A stretch of DNA of 64,000 nt. Origin: Malaciobacter pacificus. Lineage in GTDB: Bacteria > Campylobacterota > Campylobacteria > Campylobacterales > Arcobacteraceae. Numbering within the stretch: the stretch's first letter is position 1; each line of letters starts with the position of its first letter. The translations under genes and the position numbers were made by a program. Shown piece after piece: positions 3,974-32,957 of the stretch. The stretch spans positions 1,302,001 to 1,366,000 of the forward strand of contig NZ_CP035928.1 of assembly GCF_004214795.1 (NCBI RefSeq). The letters are read 5' to 3'. The notes under the pieces were generated by a model that saw only the letters and a program-made list of their open reading frames with translations, was not told where the DNA came from and ran no database searches.

Positions 3974-3997
3974 AACTCAAGTTTAAACTTGAGTTTT
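3972..3997. terminator. Bidirectional terminator
   Basis: A perfect 26-base palindrome: AAAACTCAAG and CTTGAGTTTT around a TTTAAA centre. It lies between the convergent cytochrome and flagellin genes and has A/T runs on both sides, so it can stop transcription from either direction. Confidence 0.85.
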
Positions 3998-3999
3998 AT

Positions 4000-17368: not shown

Positions 17369-18427
17369 TTATTCTTTCCACCATCTAGAAGTTGGATAAA
17401 ATCTATCCAAAGGAATTATTTCTCCCATGATAGGATGAATTACATTTAGCCCCTTTTCTTGGGCAAGTGTAGTCACCTTTTCTAAAGGTTCATACCAAGG
17501 GTGCATTGAAAGCTTGAATGTACTATTATGTATAGGAAATAGAAGTTTCCCATTTAAATCAATATGTGCTTGAATAGTTTGAGAGGGCATCATATGAATC
17601 TCTTTCCAACTTTTATTATAAGCACCAGCTTCTAAAAAAGTCATATCAAAAGGTCCATATCTTTTTGAAATTTCTTTAAAGCCAGAAAAATATCCAGTGT
17701 CACCACTAAAATATAGATTTATATTAGAACCTTTTATAACCCAAGATGACCATAAGGTTTTATTTTTATCAAAAAGCCCACGACCTGAGAAGTGTTGAGC
17801 AGGAGTTGCTGTTAGTTTTATAGTTTTATTAGTTATTGATTGATACCAGTCTAATTCATAGATTTTCATAGTATCAATACCTAAAGAGATTAGATGTTCT
17901 TTTATTCCAATTGTTGTATAAAAAGTTCCAACTTTATCTTTTAGCTTTAAAAGTGTTGGCTCATCTAAGTGGTCATAGTGATTGTGAGAGATTATTACTG
18001 CATCAATAAAAGGTAAATCATCTGTATCTATTGGATATTTATGAAAACTTTTTGGTGCAAAAATAGGGAAGGGTGTAATTTGAGCTGATAATACTGGGTC
18101 TGTAAGAATTAGTTTATCATCTATTTTTAAAAGAAGTGTAGAGTGACCAAGTCTTGTTACACTATTATTGGGCATACTTGCTATATCATCTTTTGTTAAT
18201 TTTTTAATAGGAATTTCATTTTCACTAGGTACTTGGTCATCTACTTTTTCACTAACAAATTTCCAAACATTTGAAAGAAAACCACTAAAACTAGAATCCA
18301 TATTTGCTTCAGGATTTTTAAATTTTCCATCTTGAAAGTAGTCACTATTATATTTTTTTTCATTTTTATAAGAACACCCAATCATCACTACTCCAATCAA
18401 TGTTATTAAAACTAAAATCTTTTTCAT
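17369..18427 (-). CDS. Metallo-beta-lactamase-fold lipoprotein
   Basis: 352 residues. The signal ends in the lipobox VMIGC, so it is a lipid-anchored envelope protein. The hydrolase domain has the metal motif SHNHYDHLD and later SGDTGYFSGF and HNSTFKL, matching UlaG/NAPE-PLD-like members. These act on phosphoesters, lipids or lactones; the substrate is unknown. It lies upstream of the redox cluster, just after an SDR gene in the same direction. Confidence 0.85.
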   Translation of the reverse strand: MKKILVLITLIGVVMIGCSYKNEKKYNSDYFQDGKFKNPEANMDSSFSGFLSNVWKFVSEKVDDQVPSENEIPIKKLTKDDIASMPNNSVTRLGHSTLLLKIDDKLILTDPVLSAQITPFPIFAPKSFHKYPIDTDDLPFIDAVIISHNHYDHLDEPTLLKLKDKVGTFYTTIGIKEHLISLGIDTMKIYELDWYQSITNKTIKLTATPAQHFSGRGLFDKNKTLWSSWVIKGSNINLYFSGDTGYFSGFKEISKRYGPFDMTFLEAGAYNKSWKEIHMMPSQTIQAHIDLNGKLLFPIHNSTFKLSMHPWYEPLEKVTTLAQEKGLNVIHPIMGEIIPLDRFYPTSRWWKE

Positions 18428-18450
18428 ATCAAACTCTTTTTTTGTTTAAT

Positions 18451-19170
18451 TTAAATATATATGTTTGTAATTTTTTCAATTTTTTCAATTAAACTTTTTT
18501 GTATCTCTTCATCATATACTATATCACAATATCTTATCTCTTTTAAGTGATGAAAATATTTTCCTGTATCTTTAAAACTCTTATGAGAAGTTAGCCAAAC
18601 TTGTGTATTACTACCATCTTCTAAACTATCTGGTGCTTCATAATTTGCCATTTTAGTTTTTACCCATCCTGGATCTACAGTGTTAACTAACACATTTTTC
18701 CACTTTTTTGATAGGGCTAAACTAAAAATAGATAATAGAAGTTTAGAAGTTGAATAATCAACTCCATTTTCTATTGATAGGTTATCTAAATCAACTACGC
18801 CTTGTGGGTGCATATTTGAACCAATATAGATGATTTTTTTTGGTTTTTTTACACAAGCTGTCAAAATATATGGTGCTAATACATTTACTTTAAATATCTC
18901 TGATTTATCATTTTTAAATACACCTGCATTATGAATTATCGTATCAAAGATACCTAAAGAGTTAATTTCATTTGCTAATTGTTTTGTTTCATAGATACTT
19001 GTTAAATCACCAACTAATATTTTATTTGTATTTTTTAAATATGATTTTAACTCTATTACTTTTTTTTCATTTCTAGCATGAAGTACAACTTCATGCCCTA
19101 ATTTAATTAACTCTTTAGCTGTTTGTAATCCAATACCATCAGATGAACCAGTTATAAATATTTTTGACAT
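18451..19170 (-). CDS. Short-chain dehydrogenase/reductase
   Basis: 239 residues. The cofactor motif is ITGSSDGIGLQTAKEL, followed by IIHNAGVF, and the catalytic pair is in YSTSK. It should reduce or oxidise a carbonyl/alcohol with NAD(P)H. It lies 16 bases after the alcohol dehydrogenase gene and 23 bases before the lipoprotein gene, so the three are probably one transcript. Confidence 0.87.
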   Translation of the reverse strand: MSKIFITGSSDGIGLQTAKELIKLGHEVVLHARNEKKVIELKSYLKNTNKILVGDLTSIYETKQLANEINSLGIFDTIIHNAGVFKNDKSEIFKVNVLAPYILTACVKKPKKIIYIGSNMHPQGVVDLDNLSIENGVDYSTSKLLLSIFSLALSKKWKNVLVNTVDPGWVKTKMANYEAPDSLEDGSNTQVWLTSHKSFKDTGKYFHHLKEIRYCDIVYDEEIQKSLIEKIEKITNIYI

Positions 19171-19186
19171 ATTATTTTATAAACCT

Positions 19187-20230
19187 TTATATTGTTGATG
19201 TATCAATAACATATCTATATCTTGCTTTTTTCTCTTCAACTTTTTTCCAAGCTTCAGTAATCTCGCTTGCCTTAATCATTTGAATTTCTGGTAATACATC
19301 ATTTGCAACACAATAATCAACCATCTCTTGAGTCTCTTTCATACCACCAATCAATGAAGCATTAAAGTTAACTCTACTTGCTGCTAATCCTATATTGCTT
19401 AATGTGATTTCAAATCCTACTGGCATACCAACAAATGTAAAATAACCATCAGGTTTAACAGTAGCAACATAAGGTGCAATTTCAAATTGATAAGGAATTG
19501 TACTAATCATATAATCTAAAGTTTGTGAATGAGCATATAAAGCTTTTGGATCTTCAACTACAATAACTTCTTTTGCACCAAAACCTTTGATATCTTCTTT
19601 CTTTTCAGCACTTGTAGTAAAGGCATAAACTTCAGCACCTTTTGATACAGCAATTTTAACAGCCATATGACCTAAACCACCAATTCCAGCAACACCAACT
19701 TTGTCACCTTTTTTAATATCTGCTTTTATAAGTGGAGAATAAGTTGTAATTCCTGCACAAAGTAGGGGTGCTGCTTTTTCAAAACTTACACCATCAGGTA
19801 AATGAACTGCAAAGTGATCTCTTACAACAATATGTGTTGAGTATCCACCTTGAGTAATCCCCGTTGGTTCTTTTTCTTCTGCATAACCATAAGTAAATTT
19901 TGTATCAGGATGATATTGTTCTTCATTTTCACAAGTTGTACAACCATTTACCATACACCCAACTCCGGCTTTATCACCAACTTTAAATTTTGTAACGTTT
20001 TTTCCAACTTGTGTTACAATTCCTGCTATTTCATGACCTGGAACTTGAGGATATTGTTGTTTACCCCAATGCCCTTTTTCTTGGTGAATATCTGAGTGAC
20101 AAATACTTGCTGCTTTGATTTCAATTAAAACATCATCATCTCCAACAGGTCTTCTTTCAAATTCCCAAGGTTTAATTTCTCCTGATTCGTCAAACGCTGC
20201 ATAAGCTTTTGTTTTTATTGTATTATTCAT
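19187..20230 (-). CDS. Zinc-dependent alcohol dehydrogenase / aldehyde reductase (YahK-like)
   Basis: 347 residues of the medium-chain family. The catalytic zinc ligands begin with ICHSDIHQEKGHW and GHEIAG; the NADPH fold is GVAGIGGLGHMAVKIA. In the structural zinc loop the segment CMVNGCTTCENEEQYH has three cysteines and a histidine where the last cysteine normally stands. Relatives reduce aldehydes to alcohols with NADPH. It is transcribed away from the YqhD-like gene, with shared repeats between them. Confidence 0.88.
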   Translation of the reverse strand: MNNTIKTKAYAAFDESGEIKPWEFERRPVGDDDVLIEIKAASICHSDIHQEKGHWGKQQYPQVPGHEIAGIVTQVGKNVTKFKVGDKAGVGCMVNGCTTCENEEQYHPDTKFTYGYAEEKEPTGITQGGYSTHIVVRDHFAVHLPDGVSFEKAAPLLCAGITTYSPLIKADIKKGDKVGVAGIGGLGHMAVKIAVSKGAEVYAFTTSAEKKEDIKGFGAKEVIVVEDPKALYAHSQTLDYMISTIPYQFEIAPYVATVKPDGYFTFVGMPVGFEITLSNIGLAASRVNFNASLIGGMKETQEMVDYCVANDVLPEIQMIKASEITEAWKKVEEKKARYRYVIDTSTI

Positions 20231-20345
20231 TTTTAATCCTTTATTTTAATTTTTATTATAAATTAGTTTGAAAAAAAGTGTTAGAAAGATACTCTGTATC
20301 TTTTGCATAATTCTCTAAAATATTAATTTTATTCATTTGTAGTAT

Positions 20346-20373
20346 TTGGTATAAAATTTGTAGAAATTGGTAT
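20346..20373 (+). promoter_or_regulatory. Direct repeats, possible AraC-family operator
   Basis: Two copies of TTGGTAT, at 20346-20352 and 20367-20373, are 21 bases apart, i.e. two helical turns on the same face. They lie in the divergent region between the two alcohol dehydrogenase genes, about 60 bases before the YqhD-like start. The spacing and layout fit a dimeric AraC-family activator, most simply the one encoded at 21592-22455. Confidence 0.45.
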
Positions 20374-20433
20374 TCAAAGATTTTTTGATTATCTTTATAA
20401 TACCTTCACAAATTTAATTTAAAAAGGACGCAA

Positions 20434-21573
20434 ATGGAATTTTCTTTTCATAATCCAACAGGTATAGAATTTGGAAAAGGTAAAATCAAAGAGATTTCAA
20501 ACCTAATCCCTAAAGACAAAAAAGTATTAGTAGTTTATGGTGGTGGTTCAGTTAAAAACAATGGAGCTTATGACCAAGTTACAGAAGCTTTAAAAGATCA
20601 CGAATGGTTAGAGTTTGGTGGAGTTGAAGCAAATCCAACAGTTGAAACTATGAACAAAGCAGTTGAACTTGTAAAAGCTCAAGGTGTAAACTATATTCTT
20701 GCAGTTGGTGATGGTTCTGTTATTGATGGTTCAAAATACCTTGCAGCAGCATCTTTATATGATGGTGACGGATGGGATTTCTTAGATGGAACAGCTGAAG
20801 TTCAAGAAGCACTTCCATTAGCAGTTGTATTAACTTTAGCAGCAACTGGTTCAGAATCAAATAACTTAACAGTTGTATCAAGAAAATCAACTGATGAAAA
20901 AAGAATGTATTTCTCAGACCACTCTTACCCTCAATTTGCAGTATTAGACCCGTCATTTATGGGAACTTTATCTGATAGACAACTAGGAAATGGTTTAGTA
21001 GATGCCTTTGTTCATATTTCAGAGCAATACTTAACAAAAACTAATGATTTACTTGTAAATGATGGTTATGCTGAAACTTTATATAAAGGTTTAGTAATCT
21101 TAGCTCAGAAATGGGATGAAAGAAGAACATTATGGTGGCAAGAAAACTTAATGCACATTTGTAATCAAGCACTTAATTTCCAATTAGCAAATGGTGTTTG
21201 TCAAGACTGGTCAACTCATATTATTGGACATGAATTAACTGCATTCTACGGATTAGACCATGCTAGATCTTTAGCAGTAATTTTACCTCACTTAATCAGA
21301 GAAATGATTGATGAGAAACAAGACAAATTAGCACAATTTGGTAAAAATGTATTCGGAATTGAAAATGATAACGAAGCTATTATCAAGAAAATTGAAGAAG
21401 TATTTGAATCTGTTGGTGTACCAACTAAATTAACTGCTTATGAAATTGATGATAAAGTTGTTGAAAATGTACATAATGCATTTAAATCTCACGGTTATTT
21501 AGAAATTGGAGAAAATGGAACTGTTACATTAGATAAGGTTGAAAAAATTATTAACAGATCTATTGCAGCGTAA
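20434..21573 (+). CDS. Iron-containing alcohol dehydrogenase, YqhD-like aldehyde reductase
   Basis: 379 residues. The NADPH site is VVYGGGSVKNNGAYDQV. Metal ligands are in GLVDAFVHISEQYL (Asp and His) and HIIGHELTAFYGLDHARSLAVILPH (two His). YqhD-type enzymes reduce short aldehydes that arise from oxidative damage. As in E. coli, an AraC regulator gene is next to it, here convergent. A ribosome site (AAAAGGA) precedes the ATG. Confidence 0.9.
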   Translation: MEFSFHNPTGIEFGKGKIKEISNLIPKDKKVLVVYGGGSVKNNGAYDQVTEALKDHEWLEFGGVEANPTVETMNKAVELVKAQGVNYILAVGDGSVIDGSKYLAAASLYDGDGWDFLDGTAEVQEALPLAVVLTLAATGSESNNLTVVSRKSTDEKRMYFSDHSYPQFAVLDPSFMGTLSDRQLGNGLVDAFVHISEQYLTKTNDLLVNDGYAETLYKGLVILAQKWDERRTLWWQENLMHICNQALNFQLANGVCQDWSTHIIGHELTAFYGLDHARSLAVILPHLIREMIDEKQDKLAQFGKNVFGIENDNEAIIKKIEEVFESVGVPTKLTAYEIDDKVVENVHNAFKSHGYLEIGENGTVTLDKVEKIINRSIAA

Positions 21574-21591
21574 GTTTTAACTTACACTACA

Positions 21592-22455
21592 CTAACAAGA
21601 GGCTTTTGCCTCTTTTGGTGAAAATCCAAAATAACTTTTAAAATCTCTACTAAAATGTGAAGGGTTATCATAACCTAATTCTTCAACAACATCCACAACT
21701 CTATAATCATGTTTTGTTAATAGTTCTTTTGCTTTAGTTAATCTAATTTTTTTAATATATTGTAAAGGAGTAAAGGTAGTGATTTTTTTAAAATGTGTAT
21801 GAAAAGATGATACACTCATACCACATGTTCTTGATAATGTTTCCATATCATGATTTTCTTTATAATTGTCATGAATCATTTTAAGTGCATTGGCAATTTT
21901 TGATTCATTATTTTCTTCTAAAAACATTTTATGAAGAATCTTTGCATTTTCTCCAATTGCAATTTTATAAAAAAGTTCAGTTAAAATTCCATTTGATAAA
22001 ATCATAGATTTTTCTTTTGATTCAAGTATATCAAGTAGTTTTGCAGTTGTATCTTCAATATCTTGAGTTACTTTATCTGAGAATATACCAAATGAACTGT
22101 GTTTATGTTTAAAATTTCTACTATCAAGCTTTTCTATAATATCGTACATAATTTTTCTATCTAAAGATATAAGTAAACTAATAAATGGTTCATCTTTTGA
22201 AGCATAGGTTTCACATTCTAAAGGTAAAGTAGTAGGAACTACTAAATAATTATCACAATCATATGTAAAGCTATTAGTTGAAAGATTTGCTATTTTTTTC
22301 CCTTGTAAAACAAGAATTAGACATACATCATAAATAAGTGGGGTTTTAGGTTCATATTTTGTAGTTTTAAATACTTTTATATTTTTTAGATTTGTGTCAT
22401 GAACTCCATCTTCTAAGTTTAAAATTTCTCTATTTTCTATAATACTTTTTTTCAT
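21592..22455 (-). CDS. AraC-family transcriptional regulator
   Basis: 287 residues. The N-terminal half is the AraC_N-type effector region (about 20-170). The C-terminal DNA-binding domain has two helix-turn-helices, CGMSVSSFHTHFKKITTFTP and ELGYDNPSHFSRDFKSYFGFSP. Proteins of this kind next to yqhD (YqhC in E. coli) activate it in response to aldehydes. The same role here is an inference from position and family. Confidence 0.9.
   Translation of the reverse strand: MKKSIIENREILNLEDGVHDTNLKNIKVFKTTKYEPKTPLIYDVCLILVLQGKKIANLSTNSFTYDCDNYLVVPTTLPLECETYASKDEPFISLLISLDRKIMYDIIEKLDSRNFKHKHSSFGIFSDKVTQDIEDTTAKLLDILESKEKSMILSNGILTELFYKIAIGENAKILHKMFLEENNESKIANALKMIHDNYKENHDMETLSRTCGMSVSSFHTHFKKITTFTPLQYIKKIRLTKAKELLTKHDYRVVDVVEELGYDNPSHFSRDFKSYFGFSPKEAKASC
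21597..21616. terminator. Terminator shared by convergent genes
   Basis: AAGAGGC and GCCTCTT make a 7-bp stem with a short T-rich loop, followed by TT. It terminates the YqhD-like gene and lies in the last codons of the AraC gene. Confidence 0.75.
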
Positions 22456-22576
22456 GAATAATTATAGAGTAATTTTTTTTAATTTAATGTAGAAATTAAA
22501 GATTAATTTATTGATTTATACAAATATTTAAATAGAATTTATCAAAAAGTTATCTTGATAAATTCTATTTTAGGAA

Positions 22577-23323
22577 TTAAGCTAAATATGCTCCTCCACA
22601 TACTGGTAAGTAAGTTCCTGTAAGTTGAGAACTTTCATTTTGTGTTAACATATATACTGCATTTGCTACATCTTGAGGCATTGAGATATTTCCAGTTGGA
22701 GTAACTGATTTTATAAACTCTTTGAACTCATCAGGAGCCTGTGCAGTTGCATCTGTTAAAACAAGTCCAGGAGCTACAACATTTGATGTGATTCCATATG
22801 CTCCTAATTCTTGTGCTAAGTATTTATTAAATGAATCAACTGCACCTTTTGCACTACCATGAGCTATAAAACTAGGAAGTGGACTTTCAGATAATGTACT
22901 TGAAATAAATACTAATCTACCAAATTTTTTCTCAATCATTGAAGTGTTTACAGCATATTGAGCACATAAATAAGCTGCTCTCATCTCATCATTTAATTTT
23001 TGAGAAAACTCATCCCAAGTTTGCTGTACAAATGGTTTTGGAGTGAAGTTCATATTTGCATTTGATACTAAAATATCAACTCCTCCAAACTCTGATTTAA
23101 TTTTATCAAACATAGCTTCAATTTGTGACTCATCTCTAACATCTGCTTGAATAGTATGAGCTTCACCACCTTCAAAGTTTATCTCTTTTGCTAAATTTTC
23201 AGCAACTTCTGTACTATTTACATAATTTATAAAAACTCTATAGTTTTTAGATTGAAACTTCTTTGCAACTGCTGCACCAATACCTCTTGCTCCACCTGTG
23301 ATTAGAACATTTTTCTTTGACAT
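22577..23323 (-). CDS. SDR-family oxidoreductase with altered catalytic tyrosine
   Basis: 248 residues from the ATG at 23323, which follows AAGGA; an upstream in-frame ATG at 23377 falls in the operator region and has no ribosome site. The cofactor motif is ITGGARGIGAAVAKKF and the NAG-like motif is LVSNANM. At the place of the usual YxxxK catalytic pair the sequence is HGSAK, so the tyrosine is replaced by histidine. Part of the FabG-like family. It is divergent from the luciferase-like gene and shares twin palindromes with it. Confidence 0.85.
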   Translation of the reverse strand: MSKKNVLITGGARGIGAAVAKKFQSKNYRVFINYVNSTEVAENLAKEINFEGGEAHTIQADVRDESQIEAMFDKIKSEFGGVDILVSNANMNFTPKPFVQQTWDEFSQKLNDEMRAAYLCAQYAVNTSMIEKKFGRLVFISSTLSESPLPSFIAHGSAKGAVDSFNKYLAQELGAYGITSNVVAPGLVLTDATAQAPDEFKEFIKSVTPTGNISMPQDVANAVYMLTQNESSQLTGTYLPVCGGAYLA

Positions 23324-23360
23324 ATTAATTCCTTTTTTTATTTTTATATTAATTGTTAAA

Positions 23361-23417
23361 ATACTTGTTAAATGCAAGTATAATTACTCTAAACTTAAAT
23401 ACTTGTTAAAGACAAGT
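23361..23417. promoter_or_regulatory. Twin palindromes, likely MarR operators
   Basis: ATACTTG-TTAAATG-CAAGTAT at 23361-23381 and ATACTTG-TTAAAGA-CAAGT at 23399-23417 are two near-identical palindromes 38 bases apart in the divergent promoter region of the SDR and luciferase-like genes. A TATAAT box follows at 23447. The MarR regulator at 24475 is the obvious candidate to bind them. Confidence 0.6.
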
Positions 23418-23481
23418 AGTTTAACTTTTATAAAAATATTTTTGTGTATAATTTCAAATAGAAAGAAAAAAGGTTAATAAT

Positions 23482-24471
23482 ATGAAAGAAAGAATACCTT
23501 TATCAGTACTTGATTTAGTCCCAATAGGTGAGGGCTTTTCAATTAGTGATGCTATGAATAATAGTACAAAATTGGCTCAAGCAGTTGAAGATTTCGGATA
23601 TGAAAGATATTGGATAGCTGAACATCACAACTTCAAAAGTATTGCAAGTGCAGCTACTTCAGTTGTTTTAAGTCATATTGGAGCAAATACAAAAAAGATT
23701 AGAATAGGTTCAGGTGGAATCATGCTTCCAAATCACGCACCCCTAATCATAGCTGAGCAATTTGGTACTTTAGAAGCTTTATATCCAAATAGAATAGATT
23801 TAGGACTTGGACGTGCTCCAGGAACTGACCAGAGAACTATGATGGCCTTGCGAAGAGATAAAAATGATGGTTCTGATTTTCCAGTTATGTTAAATCATTT
23901 ACAATATTATTTATCAAATGAAGGTGGACCAAATGCCATAAAAGCAGTTCCTGGATATGGAATGGAAATACCAATTTGGTTACTTGGTTCTAGTACTTTT
24001 AGTGCAAGTTTAGCAGCACAAAAAGGATTACCATTTGCTTTTGCTTCACATTTTGCACCTGATGCTATGAGTGCAGCAATTGAAGAATATAGAAGTAATT
24101 TTGTTCCTTCAAAACAGTTTGAAAAGCCTTATGTGATAGTTTGTATAAATGCTATATGTGCCCAAACTTTAGAAGAAGCAGAGTTTTTAAGAACATCAGA
24201 GCTATTAAAATTTTTATACATGCAAAGGGGTGATGAAAGATTGATTTCAAAACCAGTTGAAGATATAGATAGTATTTGGGAGCCTTGGGAAGAAAGAGCT
24301 ATTAGAAATAAAACAAGAGAGTCTATATATGGAACTCCTGAAATGGTAAAAGAAAAATTAGAATTATTGATTGAGAGAACTGGAGCAAATGAAATTATGA
24401 TGAATTGTTGGATTCACGACCCTAAAAAAAGAATACATTCCTATGAACTTATATCAAAAGTGTGGGTGTAA
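23482..24471 (+). CDS. Luciferase-like flavin-dependent oxidoreductase
   Basis: 329 residues of the bacterial luciferase-like family with the N-terminus PLSVLDLVPIGEG, YWIAEHHN and the conserved GSGGIMLPNHAPL and DLGLGRAPGTD. These use reduced flavin to oxidise a small organic compound; the substrate is not known. It precedes the MarR gene by three bases, so the two are one operon. Confidence 0.88.
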   Translation: MKERIPLSVLDLVPIGEGFSISDAMNNSTKLAQAVEDFGYERYWIAEHHNFKSIASAATSVVLSHIGANTKKIRIGSGGIMLPNHAPLIIAEQFGTLEALYPNRIDLGLGRAPGTDQRTMMALRRDKNDGSDFPVMLNHLQYYLSNEGGPNAIKAVPGYGMEIPIWLLGSSTFSASLAAQKGLPFAFASHFAPDAMSAAIEEYRSNFVPSKQFEKPYVIVCINAICAQTLEEAEFLRTSELLKFLYMQRGDERLISKPVEDIDSIWEPWEERAIRNKTRESIYGTPEMVKEKLELLIERTGANEIMMNCWIHDPKKRIHSYELISKVWV

Positions 24472-24474
24472 GAT

Positions 24475-24915
24475 ATGGAAAATAGTAAATTTAATATATA
24501 CCAATCTTTAGGATTTTATTTTAATACTATTTTTGTAGATATGAAAAGAAGTATGGAAGAGAAGTTAAAACAGTATGATTTAACTCATTTACAATTTAGT
24601 ATTTTAATCAATTTATATAAAAATGATGTAACAACTCAAAAAGAGATTTTAAGATACACAAATGGTGATGAAGCAAGTATTACTAGACTTATAGATAGAC
24701 TTGAAGGAAAGGGATTATTAAATAGAGTTCCAAGTCCCACTGATAAAAGAAAAAAGCATTTGGTTTTGACAAGTGAGGGAATAAAGCTAATTGATGAAGC
24801 AATATCTTGTGCAAAAGAGATGAATAAAGAACTTACAAAAGATTTAGAAAAAGATGAAGCTAGAGTTTTATTAAAACTGCTTAAAAAAGTCTATTCATCT
24901 TTTCATGAGAGTTGA
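24475..24915 (+). CDS. MarR-family transcriptional regulator
   Basis: 146 residues with the winged helix: LTHLQFSILINLYKN, EILRYTNGDEASITRLIDRLEGKGLLNRVPSPTDKRKKHLVLT. MarR dimers usually repress divergent genes and release DNA on ligand binding. The twin ATACTTG palindromes at 23361-23417 fit this. A weak hairpin (TGTTCA/TGAACA) follows the stop codon near 24922. Confidence 0.9.
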   Translation: MENSKFNIYQSLGFYFNTIFVDMKRSMEEKLKQYDLTHLQFSILINLYKNDVTTQKEILRYTNGDEASITRLIDRLEGKGLLNRVPSPTDKRKKHLVLTSEGIKLIDEAISCAKEMNKELTKDLEKDEARVLLKLLKKVYSSFHES

Positions 24916-25000: not shown

Positions 25001-25069
25001 ACTTAACGTTTAAAATGAGCCGATGAATTGCCCGCAGGGTAATTTATGGGCTCCACTAATTTGTTATGT
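25001..25069 (-). repeat. attC-like site 1 (end of toxin-antitoxin cassette)
   Basis: A 69-base site with 7-base ends ACTTAAC (25001-25007) and GTTATGT (25063-25069), both matching the integron R-box pattern RYYYAAC...GTTRRRY with one deviation. Between them lies an imperfect stem (GAGCCGATGAATT against AATTTATGGGCTC) capped by CCCGCAGGG. It lies right at the 3' end of the toxin gene, as attC sites lie behind cassette genes. Two sister sites follow at 25641 and 26353. Confidence 0.85.
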
Positions 25070-25070
25070 G

Positions 25071-25352
25071 TTAATCATAAGCTTTTTGTCTGTGTTTAAA
25101 ATCAACAACAGCAATAATAAGCTTATTCTCTTCGATAAGGTAAAAAAGTCTATAATTTCCAATTCTATATCTATAATAGCCTTCAAGATTATCTTTTAGC
25201 TTTTTAATGTTTGTTCCATAAAAAGGGTTTTCTCTAAGTTGGGGATAAACAAAGTTTTTAATTTTTGAATAGAGCTTTTTATCTATCTTTTTTTTAATTT
25301 TTTCAAAAGTTTTAGTTTCTGCAATTTGATACTTAGACAATTGTATAGTCAC
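25071..25352 (-). CDS. RelE/ParE-family toxin
   Basis: 93 residues with the RelE-superfamily fold: a first helix pair (TFEKIKKKIDKKLYSKIK), then NPFYGTNIKKLKDNLEGYYRYRIGNYRLFYLIEENKLII and the C-terminal FKHRQKAYD. RelE-type members cut mRNA on the ribosome and ParE-type ones inhibit gyrase; the sequence does not settle which. Its start overlaps the antitoxin gene by 20 bases. It ends two bases from an attC-like site, in an integron-type cassette. Confidence 0.87.
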   Translation of the reverse strand: MTIQLSKYQIAETKTFEKIKKKIDKKLYSKIKNFVYPQLRENPFYGTNIKKLKDNLEGYYRYRIGNYRLFYLIEENKLIIAVVDFKHRQKAYD

Positions 25353-25569
25353 CTTTTTTGAAATCTTCTAGTCCATCCATAAGGTTTTTTACTAGCTCTT
25401 TATCATTCATTATTTCAGCCATTTCATCATTTTCTACAAATTGTGAAGATGTCAAGTATTGCATTGTTGCAAACTCTATAAAATTTGAAAGATTTCTTTT
25501 TTGACCATCAGCTGCAAGTTTTATCATATCGTAAATTGAATCATCTATTCTCATAGTTACTGTTTTCAT
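25333..25569 (-). CDS. Ribbon-helix-helix antitoxin
   Basis: 78 residues. The N-terminal part (TVTMRIDDSIYDMIKLAADG, then RNLSNFIEFATMQYL) is a ribbon-helix-helix DNA-binding domain; the C-terminal tail should wrap the toxin. It should neutralise the toxin encoded next and repress the shared promoter. Antitoxin first, toxin second with overlap is the normal order. Such pairs in cassettes are known to stabilise the array. Confidence 0.85.
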   Translation of the reverse strand: MKTVTMRIDDSIYDMIKLAADGQKRNLSNFIEFATMQYLTSSQFVENDEMAEIMNDKELVKNLMDGLEDFKKGDYTIV

Positions 25570-25640
25570 AATATATCCTTTGAATATTTATAAATACTAT
25601 TGTATTCAAATTTATTCATTTTGTCAATTGTGTATGTTTC

Positions 25641-25710
25641 ACATAACGGTTGAGTTGAGAAATAAGTTTGCCCGCAGGGTAACTTATTTCTCTCCTAGTA
25701 CTTGTTATCT
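25641..25710 (-). repeat. attC-like site 2 (end of PIN-like cassette)
   Basis: 70 bases with ends ACATAAC (25641-25647) and GTTATCT (25704-25710). The stem GAGAAATAAG/CTTATTTCTC is perfect and is capped by the same CCCGCAGGG as in the other two copies. The stem sequence differs from its sisters while the structure is kept, as expected of attC sites. The last codons and stop of the PIN-like gene lie inside it. Confidence 0.85.
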
Positions 25711-26358
25711 TTTAGTGTATATGTTATCTTAGCACCATCAATGACAATAAGCTTTTCTTTAACCATTGCCTTAATGATAGCATCAAGTTGATTACTATTT
25801 AAACTTCTTGCACATATTGAGTTTATAGTATTTGATAGGGTTTCAACTTTTCTAGGCTTTGCATTTCCTCTTTTAATTAAATAGTCAACAATTAATTTTA
25901 TTTTTTCATCAATAGATAATGTTTCACAGTTTGATTGTTTCAAAGCTGGAATTTCACTAATCTCATCATAGCGATTTATTAAAGTCTTTTTTTCTCTAAG
26001 ATGTTTAATTAGTACATCAAAACCAGTATCTTTAGTGATTATATGAAAATACCCTTTAGGGTCTTTTTCATATAGTTTACCAAGGTAAAACGTAATGTGA
26101 AAGTCTAAAGCATTTTTGCCATTACCACTTATTACTACATATTCAGCTTTATCTCCTAAACTTTGCATTGATGTAGCAAGTTCAATAGGAATCTTTGTTT
26201 GATTTGCTCCAATAAAAACAATAACTTTAAAAGGATAATCTTCTGGAAACTCAAAAGATGTAGGTTGAACATTTTCAAAATCTATAAAAATATAATTATT
26301 TCTCATTTTTTTTGTATTACTCAATTCTTTTCCTTCTAAATATTTTTATGTAAGATAA
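25647..26358 (-). mobile_element. Integron-type gene cassette 2 (PIN-like nuclease)
   Basis: 712 bases between the crossover points in GTTATCT (26359-26353 on the minus strand) and GTTATGT (25647). Its start TTATCT and its closing R box AGATAAC are exact reverse complements. It holds one minus-strand gene with a short leader. Confidence 0.8.
25695..26324 (-). CDS. PIN-like (NYN-type) nuclease protein
   Basis: 209 residues. The N-terminal PIN-like domain begins YIFIDFENVQP and has acidic residues at the expected active-site places (Asp in IDFEN, Asp in ALDFHITFYLG, Asp in ITKDTGFDVL). This pattern suits metal-dependent RNA cleavage. The C-terminal 70 residues (LIVDYLIKRGNAKPRKVETL...) look like a small winged-helix nucleic-acid-binding domain. 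The gene is the only gene of cassette 2. PIN-type RNases are common in toxins and phage defence; the specific role here is unknown. Confidence 0.75.
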   Translation of the reverse strand: MSNTKKMRNNYIFIDFENVQPTSFEFPEDYPFKVIVFIGANQTKIPIELATSMQSLGDKAEYVVISGNGKNALDFHITFYLGKLYEKDPKGYFHIITKDTGFDVLIKHLREKKTLINRYDEISEIPALKQSNCETLSIDEKIKLIVDYLIKRGNAKPRKVETLSNTINSICARSLNSNQLDAIIKAMVKEKLIVIDGAKITYTLKDNKY

Positions 26359-26421
26359 CGTTTAAAATGAGCCAATAAATTTCCCGCAGGGTAATTTATT
26401 GGCTCCTCTGATTTGTTAAGT
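26353..26421 (-). repeat. attC-like site 3 (end of kinase cassette)
   Basis: 69 bases with ends AGATAAC (26353-26359) and GTTAAGT (26415-26421). The stem GAGCCAATAAATT/AATTTATTGGCTC is a perfect 13-bp match capped by CCCGCAGGG. It follows the kinase gene by seven bases. The end GTTAAGT pairs with the cassette start near 29152. Confidence 0.87.
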
Positions 26422-26428
26422 GTTGCTA

Positions 26429-27311
26429 TTAAAATGGAATATCATCAGCATCAAATCCATCATAACGTTCTACAACTTCTAACTTAGTTTCCAAGTTATT
26501 TATAATAATATTTTTTTTACTTTTTGATAAACTTTTGAAAAGATTAATAAAATCTTTTATTAAATTTACTTTTATGCTGTAATGTTTATTATAAGTGTAC
26601 TCTCCATCTAAAAAACATCTACTTAATAATACAGGCGATGGTAAAAACTCCTCAAGCATTGTATTCTTATATAATTGTTCTAACTTTCTTAAAATTTTGT
26701 CATTATCATTAATAAATTTTGTTGAAGATTCTATTGTTGATAAAATACTATACAAGGTATTTGAAAACTCTCTGTAAAGTTGAATCTCAAATTCGTTAAA
26801 ATTTATATCTAAAGCTTTTTCATTCAATATTTTTTTATAACAGTTATTAAATGACTCTATTCTATTAACTGGATTTTTATATGTCATAGCAGATAGTAAT
26901 TCTTTAAATTTAAATTCTTGTATATTTTGTTCTAATATAATTTTTTCAATTAATTTGCCAATGAAATACACTTCAGTTTTAAAATTGTATATTTTGTTCA
27001 AAAAATCATTTGGTGTTTCACACCACCAATTTAAAGTTATACTTTTGTCAAAATCTTTTTCAAAATGAACTTTTTTACCAAATCCAAAATCTATAATTTT
27101 AACCAACCCACTATTGTCAACCATTATATTGTATGGTCTCATATCTCTATGTAAAATATTATGTTCTTCCAAATATTTAAAACCATTAATAAGTTGAAGA
27201 AAAATATCATTAATTTGTTCAGGTGATTTCTCTATATATTTTTCAATATCTTCACCTTGAATATATTCCATCAAAATATATCCTGTAAAATATTCAGGAT
27301 AAAGATAATAA
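26429..27311 (-). pseudogene. Protein kinase, C-terminal part (split by IS)
   Basis: C-terminal part of a Ser/Thr-type protein kinase. Clear motifs are the hinge YILMEYIQGEDIE, the catalytic loop ILHRDMRPYNIM (HRDxxxxN) and IIDFGFGKK, i.e. DFG. The frame could be read from an ATG at 27325, but that ATG and the first residues come from the IS end. Beyond the 7-base target duplication it continues in frame into the N-lobe fragment at 28876-29121; together 373 residues. Without the N-lobe the protein cannot bind ATP. Confidence 0.87.
27305..27311. repeat. Target-site duplication, left copy
   Basis: ATAATAA directly before the left inverted repeat of the IS; the same seven bases follow the right inverted repeat at 28876-28882. 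Confidence 0.85.
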
Positions 27312-28875
27312 CTTAACTTTCGCACGTTAAATTGATTAAAATTGTAGCTAAATCTCCCTAAAACATTACTCCTTTAGTTAATAATCTTATCCTTGTTGAC
27401 ATAAAAATAATTTAGTTGTTTTTCTATGATATTTTTCTATTTTGAACTCTCAATAAAGCCCTTAAATAGGCACTTTTAGCTATAATATCTATTATATTAA
27501 AGGGTAAGAATGCAGATAGAATCCAAGATCATCGGTATTATAAACGATAAGTTAAAAAATCCAATCTATGAAACATTACGTTTGTTAAATATGAAAACTA
27601 TTTTAACCAAGAGCAATTTTTCTAAAAAAGAGGGAGTTGCTGTTCATATGGTTGTATTACATTTTGTATATATGCTGGTTATGAATAAAAAAATATCAAC
27701 CTTTATGGATCAAAGTAATGATAGTTTCAAAAAAGATGTATATTATCGATTACTTTCCAATACTTCTTATAATTGGAGAAAACTATTATCTCTTAGTTCT
27801 TTAAAGATCTTATCACTACTTCATAAAGTGCAAGATTCAAAGCTAGTAAGAGTTCTTATACTTGATGATACTGTTGAAGATAAAGTTGGTAAAAATATAG
27901 AGGGAAGTTGTGACAACCTTTGGAGCAATAAAGCAAAGAGAAAAATCAGAGGTGTAAATGTTGTATCACTAAACTATAGTGATGGTTATTCAAATTTTAT
28001 GTTGGACTTTGCAATTGCTATGAACAGTTATGCAAGGGTAAAGATAGAAGAGTTTACAAATATTATTGATCATCGAACCAATGCACATAAGCGAAGATTG
28101 GAAAGCTTAAAAGGGAAATCACAAATTGCTATAGAGATGATTAAAAGAGCAGTAGCTAGTGGTATATATGCAGATTATCTGCTTGTAGATAGCTGGTATT
28201 CTAAACCTGTATTTATAGAAACTATGAATGAACTTGGATTGCAAGTCATTTCAAGAATGGTAAACAATGACAGGATATGGAATTTTACAGGAGAGAAAAA
28301 GACCCTTGATGGCATCTATAACAAATTTAAAAAGCTTAAATCTATCAAGATGGGTCAATATGGCAAAAAGATAAAGTTTGAGTATTTTTCAACCATAGTT
28401 GAACATAAAAAAGCTGGTAAATTAAAAATTGTTTTTATAAAAACAAAAGAGAATTTAATACCAATCGTATCAACCAATCTTATACTTAGTGATGAAGAGA
28501 TTATAGATATTTATAAAAGACGATGGGATATAGAACAAGGGTATAAAGAACTTCGTGAACACTTTGGATTCGGAAAAGAAGAGAATCGAATCTATGAAGC
28601 TTTGATAGCCAGAATTACACTATCTTTTTTTACATACAATGTTGTTAGCTATATAAATCGTATCAGCAATGAACCTAAAACAATTGGTGGATTGTTTAAA
28701 GATTTAGAATGTGAACTTCATACTCTAGCAATAGCTATGCAAGCATTTTTAGCTATTTTAGATGAGATTGCAAAAATTGAAGAAGTTGTCAATAGAAATG
28801 AGGATTTTACAGCTATCATTGATCTATTAAGAGATGTGACTGGAAAATTGCTTGGTTTTAGGTGCGAAAGTTAAG
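27312..28875. mobile_element. IS4-type insertion sequence
   Basis: 1564 bases with perfect 14-bp terminal inverted repeats CTTAACTTTCGCAC (27312-27325) and GTGCGAAAGTTAAG (28862-28875). It is flanked by the 7-bp duplication ATAATAA. It carries one transposase gene whose stop codon lies inside the right inverted repeat. The target is the kinase gene of cassette 3, which it splits. Target and ends look undamaged, so the insertion is probably recent. Confidence 0.93.
27510..28874 (+). CDS. IS4-family DDE transposase
   Basis: 454 residues. The DDE triad is visible as VLILDDTVEDK, LLVDSWYSK and the C-terminal IYKRRWDIEQGYKELREHFG, a version of the Y-R-E-K motif of IS4 elements. A 7-bp target duplication would fit the ISPepr1-like branch, but that placement is tentative. 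Full length, with AAGGGTAAG before the ATG, so it may be active. Confidence 0.9.
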   Translation: MQIESKIIGIINDKLKNPIYETLRLLNMKTILTKSNFSKKEGVAVHMVVLHFVYMLVMNKKISTFMDQSNDSFKKDVYYRLLSNTSYNWRKLLSLSSLKILSLLHKVQDSKLVRVLILDDTVEDKVGKNIEGSCDNLWSNKAKRKIRGVNVVSLNYSDGYSNFMLDFAIAMNSYARVKIEEFTNIIDHRTNAHKRRLESLKGKSQIAIEMIKRAVASGIYADYLLVDSWYSKPVFIETMNELGLQVISRMVNNDRIWNFTGEKKTLDGIYNKFKKLKSIKMGQYGKKIKFEYFSTIVEHKKAGKLKIVFIKTKENLIPIVSTNLILSDEEIIDIYKRRWDIEQGYKELREHFGFGKEENRIYEALIARITLSFFTYNVVSYINRISNEPKTIGGLFKDLECELHTLAIAMQAFLAILDEIAKIEEVVNRNEDFTAIIDLLRDVTGKLLGFRCES

Positions 28876-28882
28876 ATAATAA
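28876..28882. repeat. Target-site duplication, right copy
   Basis: ATAATAA directly after the right inverted repeat, matching 27305-27311. Confidence 0.85.
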
Positions 28883-29121
28883 TTGAATATTCTAACTACA
28901 TTTTTATGATAAAGCATATGAAGGAGTTTTATTTCATCCTTAAAGTTTTTATAATATTCTTCTTTTAGTTTAGCGGAAAAAGGGGAGTATTTTTTACATA
29001 CAAAATCTTCATCAATAGTTTCATCTCTGAGTAAAATTGTTTTACCAAATGCACTTTCACCTATATTTTTAATTTTTTTAAATGGTTTTTTTCTAGTAAA
29101 CTCTATAACATCTTCTGACAT
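28876..29121 (-). pseudogene. Protein kinase, N-terminal part (split by IS)
   Basis: About 82 residues starting MSEDVIEF after an AGGATGG ribosome site. This is the kinase N-lobe: a glycine-rich-loop-like IGESAFGKTILL, a lysine in FVCKKYSP and helix C in DEIKLLHMLYHKNVVRIFNYY. It joins in frame to the fragment at 26429-27311 when the IS and one ATAATAA copy are removed (reading FNYYLYPEYFTGYI). Kinases of this sort on mobile DNA are sometimes anti-phage, but that is inference. Confidence 0.87.
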
Positions 29122-29145
29122 AAATCCATCCTATAATATGATTGC

Positions 29146-29212
29146 ACTTAACTATTTATTAGTAATACATTATATATTAATTACCCATAAAATTACTTAA
29201 TAGTAATACATT
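29146..29212 (-). repeat. Cassette boundary with direct repeats, attI-like
   Basis: On the plus strand ACTTAAC (29146-29152) is the first boundary of cassette 3. It is followed by TAGTAATACATT at 29160-29171; a second copy of ACTTAA plus TAGTAATACATT lies at 29195-29212. There is no attC stem here. A crossover box with nearby direct repeats resembles an integron attI site, but no integrase gene is next to it. Confidence 0.45.
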
Positions 29213-29406
29213 TTTAATGTTATGATATCAAGTTAGACAAAGTCCTATAAATAGGCTTATTTTAATAAAATATAAAATAATAGATTACAATATATAATAT
29301 TTTTTATCTTATTCTTTGATATTTGATATAATTATTTTTGTTAGACTATTAACTAATATCCTTAATATCTTATAAAAATTATTCAATATCCACAAAAACT
29401 GAGTTT
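29213..29406. other. AT-rich intergenic region
   Basis: Nearly 200 bases of AT-rich DNA between the cassette boundary and the cyclophilin-like gene. No gene, RNA or integrase remnant is visible. Confidence 0.5.
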
Positions 29407-29829
29407 TTAGTCTACCTTTGTTATTTCAATAGTTCCACTTAAAGTTTTAATATCATCAATACCTGAAGTTACAAAACCTAATTCATATAAACCACCAGCA
29501 CTTCCAAAATCTTTATAAAACATAACTACATCACCCCAAGGTGCATAATAAGCTAGTATTCCTTTTTTTGCATTTGCAAGTGGTGTGTTTGAAGTTGATA
29601 GTTTATTTGGTGGATAAAATATCTTTTCCATTGAAGCATAATCTTCAACTTTGATTTTTAATGGTAATTGATTTAGAAGCTCTTTTGAAGCATCTGAATT
29701 ATTTAGTTCAAAAACTATTATTTTACCATTTGATTCTACACTTATTTTCATTTTGTTTCCTTTTTCATTTGCTAATAATATAATTGGAGTTATTAAGCAA
29801 AGTAATATATTTAAAATTTTTTTACTCAT
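29407..29829 (-). CDS. Exported cyclophilin-like protein
   Basis: 140 residues with a signal peptide (MSKKILNILLCLITPIILLA). The mature domain (MKISVESNGKIIVFELNNSD...ILAYYAPWGDVVMFY...GLYELGFVTSG) matches the cyclophilin-like fold family found beside flavin or quinone reductases; these are not known to be active isomerases. It overlaps the upstream transporter gene by eight bases, so it belongs to the cupin operon. Confidence 0.78.
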   Translation of the reverse strand: MSKKILNILLCLITPIILLANEKGNKMKISVESNGKIIVFELNNSDASKELLNQLPLKIKVEDYASMEKIFYPPNKLSTSNTPLANAKKGILAYYAPWGDVVMFYKDFGSAGGLYELGFVTSGIDDIKTLSGTIEITKVD

Positions 29830-31336
29830 GATTAACCTCTACTAATTTTGGTTTTCTAGCAAATATAAGAGTTAGTATACATGCACTTATTGCTAAAACA
29901 CCATAAAATATCGATACATGAAATAAATCCATATAATGTGACATTTGACCTGCTATAAAACTAGGAATCGCAGCACCTGCGTATGATGTTGCATAAATAA
30001 GTGATAATATTCCTGCTCTCTCTTGAATTGTTACATCTTTCATAACTGATCTTATACTTCCTGTTAGTACTGCTCCTTGAGATGCTCCTGCAACTGCACT
30101 TGAAAGTATAAACAACCATAAACTAGATATCTTTAGTGAAAAGATAATCCCCATAACGCCAATACTAAAACAAAACATAGCAACTCTTTGAGCATCAGCA
30201 GGCTCTAATTTTGCACTAATAGGTCCTCCAATGGCACTAGGTAAAAGGTATGAACCAAATAAAATTGCTATTATAAGTGTATTGTGAGTTCCAAGTTGGT
30301 CAACTGCTATTGATGGACCAAATGCTTGATAAAATGCTCCCATAGCCCAAGTTGATACAAAAGTAACTGCTGCTATTGGAAAAAACTTTTTGCCTTTTAT
30401 AGGTAGTGAAAATTTTGGTTTTAGTGATTTTAATAATCCTGGAGTTTTTTGTACTGTTTCATCACTGTAAGCTATTAAAATAGTACAAATTGCTAAAACT
30501 ACTAATATGAAAACATAACATAAAACTCTTTGATAAGGTGCAAACTGTACTAATGACCCAGAAATTAAAGCACCAATTGTTAGACCAATCATTGGAGAGT
30601 TACTCACTATTGCTGCAGGAACCCACTGGGGTAAAGAAGTTCCATTATCAACGATATATGATGTAATTGAACTAGATGCTAAACCACAAGCAAGTCCAAG
30701 TAAAAGTCTTGCAAAAATCAGTATTTCAGCACTGTTTACATCAAGAAGCATAATTGTAGCAATTGTAGTTAAGGCAAAGATGATAAAAGCTACTGGTTTT
30801 CTTCCTAAGTGGTTTGAGATTCTTCCAAAGAAAAGTAGGGCTGTAATAGCACCTATAAAGTAAACAACTGCAGTTAATGCTAAGTCATTATATGTTAAGT
30901 GCTCTTCAATTCTATAAATGTCATATAAAGGTATTGGTGTAGCAGAAGCAGCAAATACCATAAGAAATGAGATACTTGCTGCTATAAAGCTGATATTTAA
31001 ACTTGCAACTTTTCCTTCAATATCATCTATTCCAGTTTTTTTTCTTTCATTTATTAAGTTCATAAATATATTTTGTGCATTTAAACTTCTTGGAAATCCA
31101 ACATAAGCATATAAATGTGCAAAAATTTCTTTGATTTCATTTTGAGTAAGTCCTGCTTTTAAACCTTTTATTAGTGATTTTCTTAAACTCTCTAAATCTC
31201 CACTAGCACTAAAAGCAGAGATTTCTATAGTTGCTATCTCTTTTTTATCTAGTTCTTCAAATTTTGTTCCACCAGTTTCATTTGCAAATACAAATAGTGG
31301 TAAAAATAAAAATAGTTTTAATATTTGTTTCATCAT
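29822..31336 (-). CDS. Fusion of a CMD-domain half and an MFS transporter
   Basis: 504 residues. Residues 1-20 are a signal peptide. Residues about 25-110 (KEIATIEISAFSASGDLESL, then LYAYVGFPRSLNAQN and DDIEGK) are the first half of an exported carboxymuconolactone decarboxylase-type protein. After DIEGK the protein turns directly into a 12-helix MFS transporter with GRISNHLGRKPV and many membrane helices. The CMD half lacks its second repeat. The likely cause is a deletion joining two genes. The cupin upstream is the normal partner of such CMD proteins. Confidence 0.85.
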   Translation of the reverse strand: MMKQILKLFLFLPLFVFANETGGTKFEELDKKEIATIEISAFSASGDLESLRKSLIKGLKAGLTQNEIKEIFAHLYAYVGFPRSLNAQNIFMNLINERKKTGIDDIEGKVASLNISFIAASISFLMVFAASATPIPLYDIYRIEEHLTYNDLALTAVVYFIGAITALLFFGRISNHLGRKPVAFIIFALTTIATIMLLDVNSAEILIFARLLLGLACGLASSSITSYIVDNGTSLPQWVPAAIVSNSPMIGLTIGALISGSLVQFAPYQRVLCYVFILVVLAICTILIAYSDETVQKTPGLLKSLKPKFSLPIKGKKFFPIAAVTFVSTWAMGAFYQAFGPSIAVDQLGTHNTLIIAILFGSYLLPSAIGGPISAKLEPADAQRVAMFCFSIGVMGIIFSLKISSLWLFILSSAVAGASQGAVLTGSIRSVMKDVTIQERAGILSLIYATSYAGAAIPSFIAGQMSHYMDLFHVSIFYGVLAISACILTLIFARKPKLVEVNHE

Positions 31337-31344
31337 AAATCCTT

Positions 31345-31842
31345 TTATTTTGAATTATATTGTTCATCAGTTACTGGTTCCATCCAGTTTACATTTTTAC
31401 CTGTTTTTTCAACTGCACCAGTAATTACTAAGTGAGTCATTGCAATATCTTTTGATGCTCCATGCCAGTGTTTTACACCAATTGGACACCAAACAACATC
31501 ACCTTCTTTTACTGTCTCTTTTTTACCATCCCAAGTTTGTGTATATCCAACACCTTTTGTAACTATGATATGCTGACCTGCTGGATGAGTGTGCCAGTTT
31601 GATCTTGCTCCTGGTTCAAAAGTTACATATGCTCCTGAGTGAGTTTTTGTATTTCCTTTTGGATAGACAGGGTCGATTCTAACTTCTCCACCACTAAAAT
31701 ACTTTTTAAAATCTGTTTTGTTTACAACAATAGATTTTCTATCTTCAAGTCTTGTAATAGTTTGTTCATTTTTAATTTCACTTGCTTGAGTTTGACTAAT
31801 CGATAATAAGGCTAAAACTGCCGTAGTTGTAATTAATTTCAT
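31345..31842 (-). CDS. Exported cupin protein
   Basis: 165 residues with a signal peptide (MKLITTTAVLALLSISQTQA). The cupin barrel carries the metal-binding pattern WHTHPAGQHIIVTKG (histidines) and VWCPIGVKHWHGAS. It is the first gene of the cupin, CMD-MFS, cyclophilin-like operon, which lies opposite an AraC regulator. A periplasmic small-molecule binding or oxidase role is likely, substrate unknown. Confidence 0.87.
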   Translation of the reverse strand: MKLITTTAVLALLSISQTQASEIKNEQTITRLEDRKSIVVNKTDFKKYFSGGEVRIDPVYPKGNTKTHSGAYVTFEPGARSNWHTHPAGQHIIVTKGVGYTQTWDGKKETVKEGDVVWCPIGVKHWHGASKDIAMTHLVITGAVEKTGKNVNWMEPVTDEQYNSK

Positions 31843-31914
31843 ATTTAAGTCCTTTAAATTGATATATTTAAAGTATATATTAACAATAAAATAATCACTA
31901 GAATGATTTTGTAA

Positions 31915-31967
31915 ATTTCTTGCACAATACTACAAATATTTAAAAAATGGAGAATTGGGCAAGAAAT
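31915..31967. promoter_or_regulatory. Inverted repeat in divergent promoter region
   Basis: ATTTCTTGC at 31915-31923 and GCAAGAAAT at 31959-31967 form a 9-base inverted repeat 35 bases apart, between the cupin operon and the AraC gene. It may be the regulator's operator. Confidence 0.4.
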
Positions 31968-32042
31968 ATACAGAATTTTTCTTGTTTAATCTATAAATAT
32001 TTAATATAATTAAAATGGATTATATTGCTTAAAAGGATTATT

Positions 32043-32957
32043 ATGGAAGATTATTTAGTACAAGCAAGAGAAGATTTAATAGAATTTATAAATAAAAAAT
32101 ATAGTTTAGAAAATGGATTATTACAAAGTGAAATTGAGTGTTTAGATTTTTTCTATTCTACATCAACTACAGAGTTCGATGCAATAATGTATGAGCCATC
32201 ACTTTGCGTTATATTACAAGGGTCAAAAGCCGTTGGTTTTGGAGAAAAACTTTACCAATATAGTCCAAGTGAGTATTTACTTTCATCAACACATGTACCT
32301 GCAAATATTAGGATATTAGAAGCAAGTGAAGATACTCCTTATTTATCTTTTAGAATTAGATTTGGATTAGAAGATATTTACGAAGTATTAAAAAATACTA
32401 ATCCATCAAAATTAGAGTTTCAAAAAAAATCAGAAAAAGGACTTTTCTTTGATGATTTAAACTACTCTTTATATGAACCAATGACTAGATTAGTTAAGTT
32501 ACTTGAAAAGCCCAAAGAAGATATTGAGTATTTAGCTCCTTTTATTATAAAAGAGATTTTATATAAGCTAATAAATGATAAAAGTGGATACTTCTTAAAT
32601 AAATTTGTAATGGAAGGTACAACATCAAATAAGGTTGTTAAGGCTATTACTGAGATTAAAAATAAATTTAATGAAAAATTAAATATTAAAGAATTAGCAA
32701 ACCTTGTTGAAATGAGTGAATCATCTTTATATCAAAATTTTAAAACAATTACTTCAATGACACCAATACAGTTTCAAAAAAATCTTAGACTCCAAGAAGC
32801 TAAGCAAATATTATCTGTTAGAAATATTGAAGTTAGTGAGGTGGCTTTTGCAGTAGGGTATGAATCACCATCTCAATTTAGTAGAGAGTATTCTAGAATG
32901 TTTGGAATCTCTCCCAAAGCCCATAGTGATATTTTAAAAGGACAAGTTAGTGCCTAA
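32043..32957 (+). CDS. AraC-family transcriptional regulator
   Basis: 304 residues from the ATG at 32043 with AAGGA upstream; an in-frame TTG at 32025 has no ribosome site. The N-terminal AraC_N domain (MYEPSLCVILQGSKAVGFG) is followed by the two helix-turn-helices, LVEMSESSLYQNFKTITSMTP and AVGYESPSQFSREYSRMFGISP. Divergent from the cupin operon, which it probably controls. Confidence 0.9.
   Translation: MEDYLVQAREDLIEFINKKYSLENGLLQSEIECLDFFYSTSTTEFDAIMYEPSLCVILQGSKAVGFGEKLYQYSPSEYLLSSTHVPANIRILEASEDTPYLSFRIRFGLEDIYEVLKNTNPSKLEFQKKSEKGLFFDDLNYSLYEPMTRLVKLLEKPKEDIEYLAPFIIKEILYKLINDKSGYFLNKFVMEGTTSNKVVKAITEIKNKFNEKLNIKELANLVEMSESSLYQNFKTITSMTPIQFQKNLRLQEAKQILSVRNIEVSEVAFAVGYESPSQFSREYSRMFGISPKAHSDILKGQVSA

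Follow-up and report, generated by a model that had tools for sequence, protein, structure and literature searches.

Results

Organization of the locus

The window, a 64,000-nucleotide stretch of the Malaciobacter pacificus genome (G000), holds three cassettes on the minus strand, which carry a protein kinase gene, a PIN-domain gene and a RelE/ParE-type toxin-antitoxin pair (Table 1). The array lies inside a cluster (17369-24915 and 29407-32957) of dehydrogenase, luciferase-like monooxygenase, MarR/AraC regulator, cyclophilin-like, MFS and cupin genes; relatives retain this cluster, but with its genes reshuffled.

Table 1. Coordinates of the cassette array and its outer boundary in the window
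Feature	Position	Strand	Basis or remark
Cassette 3, antitoxin-like ORF and RelE/ParE-type toxin	25007..25646	-	box pair GTTATGT/ACATAAC
attC of cassette 3, array end	25001..25069	-	covariance model 74.3 bits (site in training set); fold z -2.4
Cassette 2, PIN7-domain protein	25647..26358	-	box pair GTTATCT/AGATAAC
attC of cassette 2	25641..25710	-	covariance model 78.8 bits (site in training set); fold z -4.3
Cassette 1, protein kinase gene split by IS	26359..29151	-	Pfam Pkinase; box pair GTTAAGT/ACTTAAC
attC of cassette 1	26353..26421	-	covariance model 78.9 bits (site in training set); DNA fold z -5.5
IS4-family insertion in kinase gene	27312..28875	+	14-bp ends CTTAACTTTCGCAC / GTGCGAAAGTTAAG; 7-bp target duplication ATAATAA
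R box GTTAAGT	29146..29152	-	sequence; crossover G^TT between 29152 and 29151
Imperfect inverted repeat TTACTA-ATAAA-TAGTTA	29149..29165	-	putative L and R IntI binding arms
Proximal direct repeat	29150..29171	-	overlaps crossover site
TATAAT, putative -10 of cassette promoter Pc	29169..29174	-	sequence; 17 bases before crossover G
Distal direct repeat (DR-like)	29191..29212	-	19/22 against proximal copy
attI module (attI and remnant of attI-intI spacer)	29149..29380	-	blastn to relatives
Junction replacing intI-side spacer and intI by host DNA	29381..29406	.	end of homology
Cyclophilin-like gene	29829-29407	-	adjoins junction where intI expected

In every cassette, the initial seven bases are exactly reverse-complementary to the box of its own attC, as is characteristic of circular cassettes that inserted at G^TT. 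In cassette 1, the attC box ACTTAAC at 26415-26421 pairs exactly with the GTTAAGT at the array edge; this complementarity fixes the start of the cassette at 29151. The kinase gene runs from a start codon at 29121 to 26429 and is interrupted by an IS, to which DNA on Aliarcobacter/Arcobacter plasmids is about 92% identical. Because the IS sits inside cassette 1 with a 7-bp duplication of its own, the CTTAAC that its ends share with the boundary is coincidental, and its position and duplication likewise rule out that the boundary is the attachment site of the IS. The kinase fragment at 26429-27310 resembles, in the kinase domain only, the phage-defence kinases MAD6 and PD-T4-6 (PADLOC); relatives encode the kinase as an uninterrupted frame of about 375 codons with 47-48% identity.

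The PIN cassette and its attC are 97% identical in DNA to a cassette in another genus (genome G097), where the array has a weakly scoring attI that adjoins a frameshifted intI; the shared stretch is 25695-26324 of the window and 3994-4623 of the G097 locus L208. Elsewhere in the family, PIN homologs were found in only two genomes, at 56-63% protein identity. Cassette 3 carries TTGACA...TACAAT upstream of an antitoxin-like ORF (25569-25333), for which we found no family match, and a toxin gene (25334-25071) that matched Pfam ParE_toxin and NCBIfam RelE_StbE. The toxin occurs at 90-95% protein identity in several genomes, and among the copies with inspected flanks several lacked an attC of the array type.

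The outer edge of the array has the layout of an attI site

The original prediction described the first edge of the array as a crossover box with tandem direct repeats and with no attC stem on its outer side. We confirmed its positions in the sequence: ACTTAAC occupies 29146-29152, ACTTAACTATTTATTAGTAATACATT spans 29146-29171, and ACTTAATAGTAATACATT spans 29195-29212. Delimited in this way, one copy differs from the other by an 8-base indel; aligned without a gap, the two copies listed in Table 1 share 19 of 22 bases at a spacing of 41 bases. When the 250-bp region was dinucleotide-shuffled, a repeat pair of equal quality arose in 7 of 1000 shuffles, and an equally good match to the crossover-side copy in 0 of 3000. 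ACTTAAC was rejected as a signal by itself, as the window contains 10 copies against 12.8 expected.

Neither the covariance model nor folding revealed an attC stem outside 29152, as predicted, and all three convincing attC that the model found genome-wide lie on the opposite side. On the plus strand, each of the three attC folds into a hairpin, whereas the folding of 29120-29240 was no better than that of shuffled sequences (z -0.2 and -0.1), ruling out an attI that acts as a folded single-strand site in the manner of attC. Three attributes by which an attI is recognized are present: a GTTRRRY-type simple crossover box with the cassette junction at G^TT, direct repeats upstream of the core, and a first cassette whose 5' end is matched by the outer box of the attC that closes it.

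In an alignment of 23 attI copies, the best-conserved columns overlap the inverted repeat, and the TATAAT is also strongly conserved. The conserved parts are TATAWAAT, then GTATKWYYAATAAATAG^TTA, with the arms TTACTA/TAGTTA around five bases; a second, less conserved repeat copy lies ~40 bp upstream. By analogy with attI1, the inverted arms are putative IntI binding arms. The TATAAT is a plausible Pc -10; a consensus scan, which requires a -35 element, reported no sigma-70 site with a -35 at this position. Across 85 sites, with kinship among sites ignored, the distal repeat copy scored 9.89/15 matches against the proximal repeat at the same site, compared to 9.32 for permuted partners and a permuted maximum of 9.55 (300 permutations).

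The outer 230 bp are homologous to DNA upstream of intI in relatives

Matches to other Arcobacteraceae genomes begin at 29146-29149, and the homology among attI copies stops at the R box, beyond which the sequence is specific to each cassette. By blastn, 29149-29380 is 90% identical over 231 bp to a segment beside an intI pseudogene in G002, and 86-88% identical to segments in G087 and G102. It had been proposed that relatives be searched for an intI at the same boundary, and we observed that homologs adjoin an intact or decayed intI in G002, G087, G011, G014, G015, G018, and G022. The attI core motif lies upstream of intI at 9 of the 12 best IntI loci, and two of the remaining three run into contig ends. 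Since homologs of the segment adjoin intI and the motif recurs at these nine loci, we identify the segment as the attI region of Arcobacteraceae integrons; the site is almost certainly a genuine attI. Dozens of other arrays also bear this module on their cassette side.

We confirmed the absence of intI from the window, where tblastn with Arcobacteraceae IntI returned nothing below E = 3. The suggestion that an intI elsewhere in the genome might act in trans failed: we found no IntI in G000, and the best match to the IntI model was a 366-aa Xer-type tyrosine recombinase that scored 82 bits against the IntI cut-off of 265. An IntI that serves the site in trans in this genome now is ruled out, and the inventory of the genome comes to one attI, three attC, and no IntI. 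This attI is not adjacent to an intI, and the locus lacks the integrase gene of a complete integron. Since the genome encodes no IntI, shuffling of the array should have ceased, leaving it fixed.

Homology to intI-linked attI ends at ~29380, which is 231-234 bp from the crossover and within the attI-intI spacer; in G002, intI starts ~300 bp out from the site. No fragment of intI was found at 29381-29406 or elsewhere in the window, so we infer a former intI at this locus from the relatives. There, the cyclophilin-like, MFS transporter, dehydrogenase, MarR, and luciferase-like genes are clustered in another order and without an integron, which places the array at a synteny break. The break, together with an end of homology before the start of intI, fits a history in which the intI side was removed by deletion or rearrangement.

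attI copies are widespread across Arcobacteraceae

A model of the attI core matched 63 of 104 Arcobacteraceae genomes at E ≤ 0.01, a threshold at which the weakest matches are uncertain, with up to ten matches per genome; 16 of the 104 encode an IntI above the curated cut-off. At E ≤ 1e-6, the model also matched other families of the order. We inspected 80 sites with enough flank, chosen by attI score and counted as sites rather than as independent events: 11 had most of an intI, 12 had a fragment, and 57 had none within 1.5 kb. A self-closing cassette was present at 25 of these 57, where 1-6 were expected (20 permutations). Across sites, the first cassette was closed at 42/85, compared to 2-7/85 in the permuted null.

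In several genomes, attI occurs as two or three tandem copies. At L107, L109, L124, L126, L137, L139, L145, L149, and L151, at least two attI in the same orientation lie 0.9-10 kb apart, mostly without intI; L145 (contig G051:C2, 140289 bases) has two copies. G093 (L124) has two copies of a 260-bp attI segment with 99% identity (reverse-strand 2826-3085 and 12915-13174); the second, ~10 kb away, has no intI and is bordered by the palindromic AAAGGGGACAGTCCCCTTT, which is like REP-type sequences.

No exact match to the attI motif was found in viral contigs, and the attI region searched alone gave no blastn match to plasmids. When the whole array was the query, short pieces matched Aliarcobacter/Arcobacter plasmids at 76-93%, and the Aliarcobacter faecis plasmid NZ_CP053838.1 was among the matches; attI sites probably occur on plasmids too. 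The attI motif is also present in public records (L167 and L177) labelled Sulfurimonas sp. and Helicobacter pylori PMSS1, of which at least the latter looks mislabelled.

Discussion

Our analyses support an option raised by the original prediction, an attI that lost its integrase, in that the outer 230 bp are homologous to DNA directly upstream of intI in relatives. The boundary is probably a true attI, with a -10 resembling that of a cassette promoter, from a chromosomal integron of the Campylobacterales type whose integrase gene has been lost; that a local intI disappeared here, rather than never having been present, is the likeliest history, and we hold it with fair confidence. IntI would once have been encoded just beyond 29380, facing away from the cassettes. 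This enzyme may have bound at 29149-29212, to the inverted arms and the repeat, and would have joined the attC of circular cassettes to the G^TT at 29152/29151, building up the kinase, PIN, and toxin-antitoxin array. Later, the intI side might have been deleted or split off by a rearrangement, leaving the attI beside the cyclophilin-like gene.

This copy could also have been solitary from the start, given the many attI of the family without intI and the 260-bp duplication in G093. The module would then have been copied or moved without intI, its cassettes would have been inserted by the IntI of an ancestor encoded elsewhere, and several such sites in a genome would form one dispersed integron. 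The 57 of 80 sampled attI without a nearby intI, 25 of them loaded, are consistent with this idea, as are genomes with several attI, also in tandem, the duplication itself, and the upstream ends of attI copies, which often fall within the spacer before intI. However, the support comes from the family-wide pattern and from nothing specific to this genome. G000 has only one attI and no IntI; about a dozen copies retain a partial intI, showing that decay in place happens; and attI copies that share a genome often diverge from one another, as integrons acquired separately would. We regard a solitary attI loaded in trans as unlikely at this locus.

Integrase loss aside, the original prediction had allowed for a secondary insertion site, attG-like, with cassettes inserted at a chance G^TT in ordinary DNA. 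Insertion at attG is an established route (PMC12901181), and no intI lies nearby, but the outer 230 bp form a conserved module found beside intI and many other cassette arrays. Conservation over 230 bp and a tie to intI are not expected of a secondary site, nor would a site unrelated to attI be 90% identical to one linked to an intI pseudogene, and we consider this origin highly improbable. We give equally little credence to the absence of any attachment site, that is, an AT-rich kinase promoter region with chance repeats and a chance GTTAAGT. The composition is indeed very AT-rich and ACTTAAC is no commoner than chance; however, 0/3000 shuffles reach the repeat, homology ends at the crossover in relatives, and three cassettes close. 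The shuffles and the homology rule out a chance repeat or a promoter only. The original prediction had named two outcomes that would count against it, cassette-free relatives whose uninterrupted DNA shows the repeats to be unrelated and another attC just outside; we found neither.

The attI1 site of class 1 integrons combines a GTTRRRY-type R box, a G^TT crossover, an inverted L arm, upstream direct repeats, and a nearby cassette promoter (PMC12901181). The site described here has an R box, crossover, L arm, and repeats of the attI1 type and a promoter-like -10; it differs in being unrelated in sequence, extremely AT-rich, and without an adjacent integrase gene, and in that its core shares bases with both the TATAAT and the proximal repeat. 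Sites of the attG kind, too, receive cassettes at a G^TT away from intI, but they diverge from classical att sites (PMC12901181), whereas our site is a clear attI homolog. In the Delta-attI-type cassettes and attI-ORF-attI arrays of mobile integrons, attI likewise occurs away from intI, even in tandem (PMC12901181); these are mostly short attI1/attI2 pieces (e.g., 14-18 nt) compared to the 230-bp module at the start of the array here.

With three attC cassettes in a genome without intI, the locus also falls within the CALIN class of IntegronFinder (PMC9024848), which comprises at least two attC with no intI nearby. Off-target insertion, loss of intI, and rearrangement have been discussed as CALIN origins (PMC8618304). 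Here, unlike in a CALIN as such, the attI is kept, so that loss or separation of the integrase can be told apart from off-target insertion, and an attI at the array edge excludes off-target insertion for this locus. The integron remnant of Treponema phagedenis (PMC3607928) similarly retains attC sites although intI has apparently been lost; attI was not considered in that study because of its poor conservation, whereas here it was recognized via intI-linked homologs. Little has been described of attI sites beyond class 1 integrons (PMC9024848), so the origin of most intI-less arrays cannot be assigned. We found no description of these Arcobacteraceae attI sites in the open-access literature that we searched, which is only weak evidence that they are new.

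For an entire bacterial family, attI now has a sequence definition by which it can be detected in the absence of intI. The origin of a CALIN thereby becomes testable: where an attI borders the array, integrase loss or a solitary attI is indicated, and where none does, off-target insertion. Loaded attI without an adjacent integrase are common in Arcobacteraceae, which raises the testable question of action in trans. In a broader and less likely reading, genomes of Arcobacteraceae, and perhaps of other Campylobacterales, would each carry several attI platforms, dispersed and without an integrase; every platform would have its own promoter and cassettes, would have spread without intI, and would be served in trans by one occasionally present IntI. 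If so, the window would hold one such platform, stranded after the integrase vanished.
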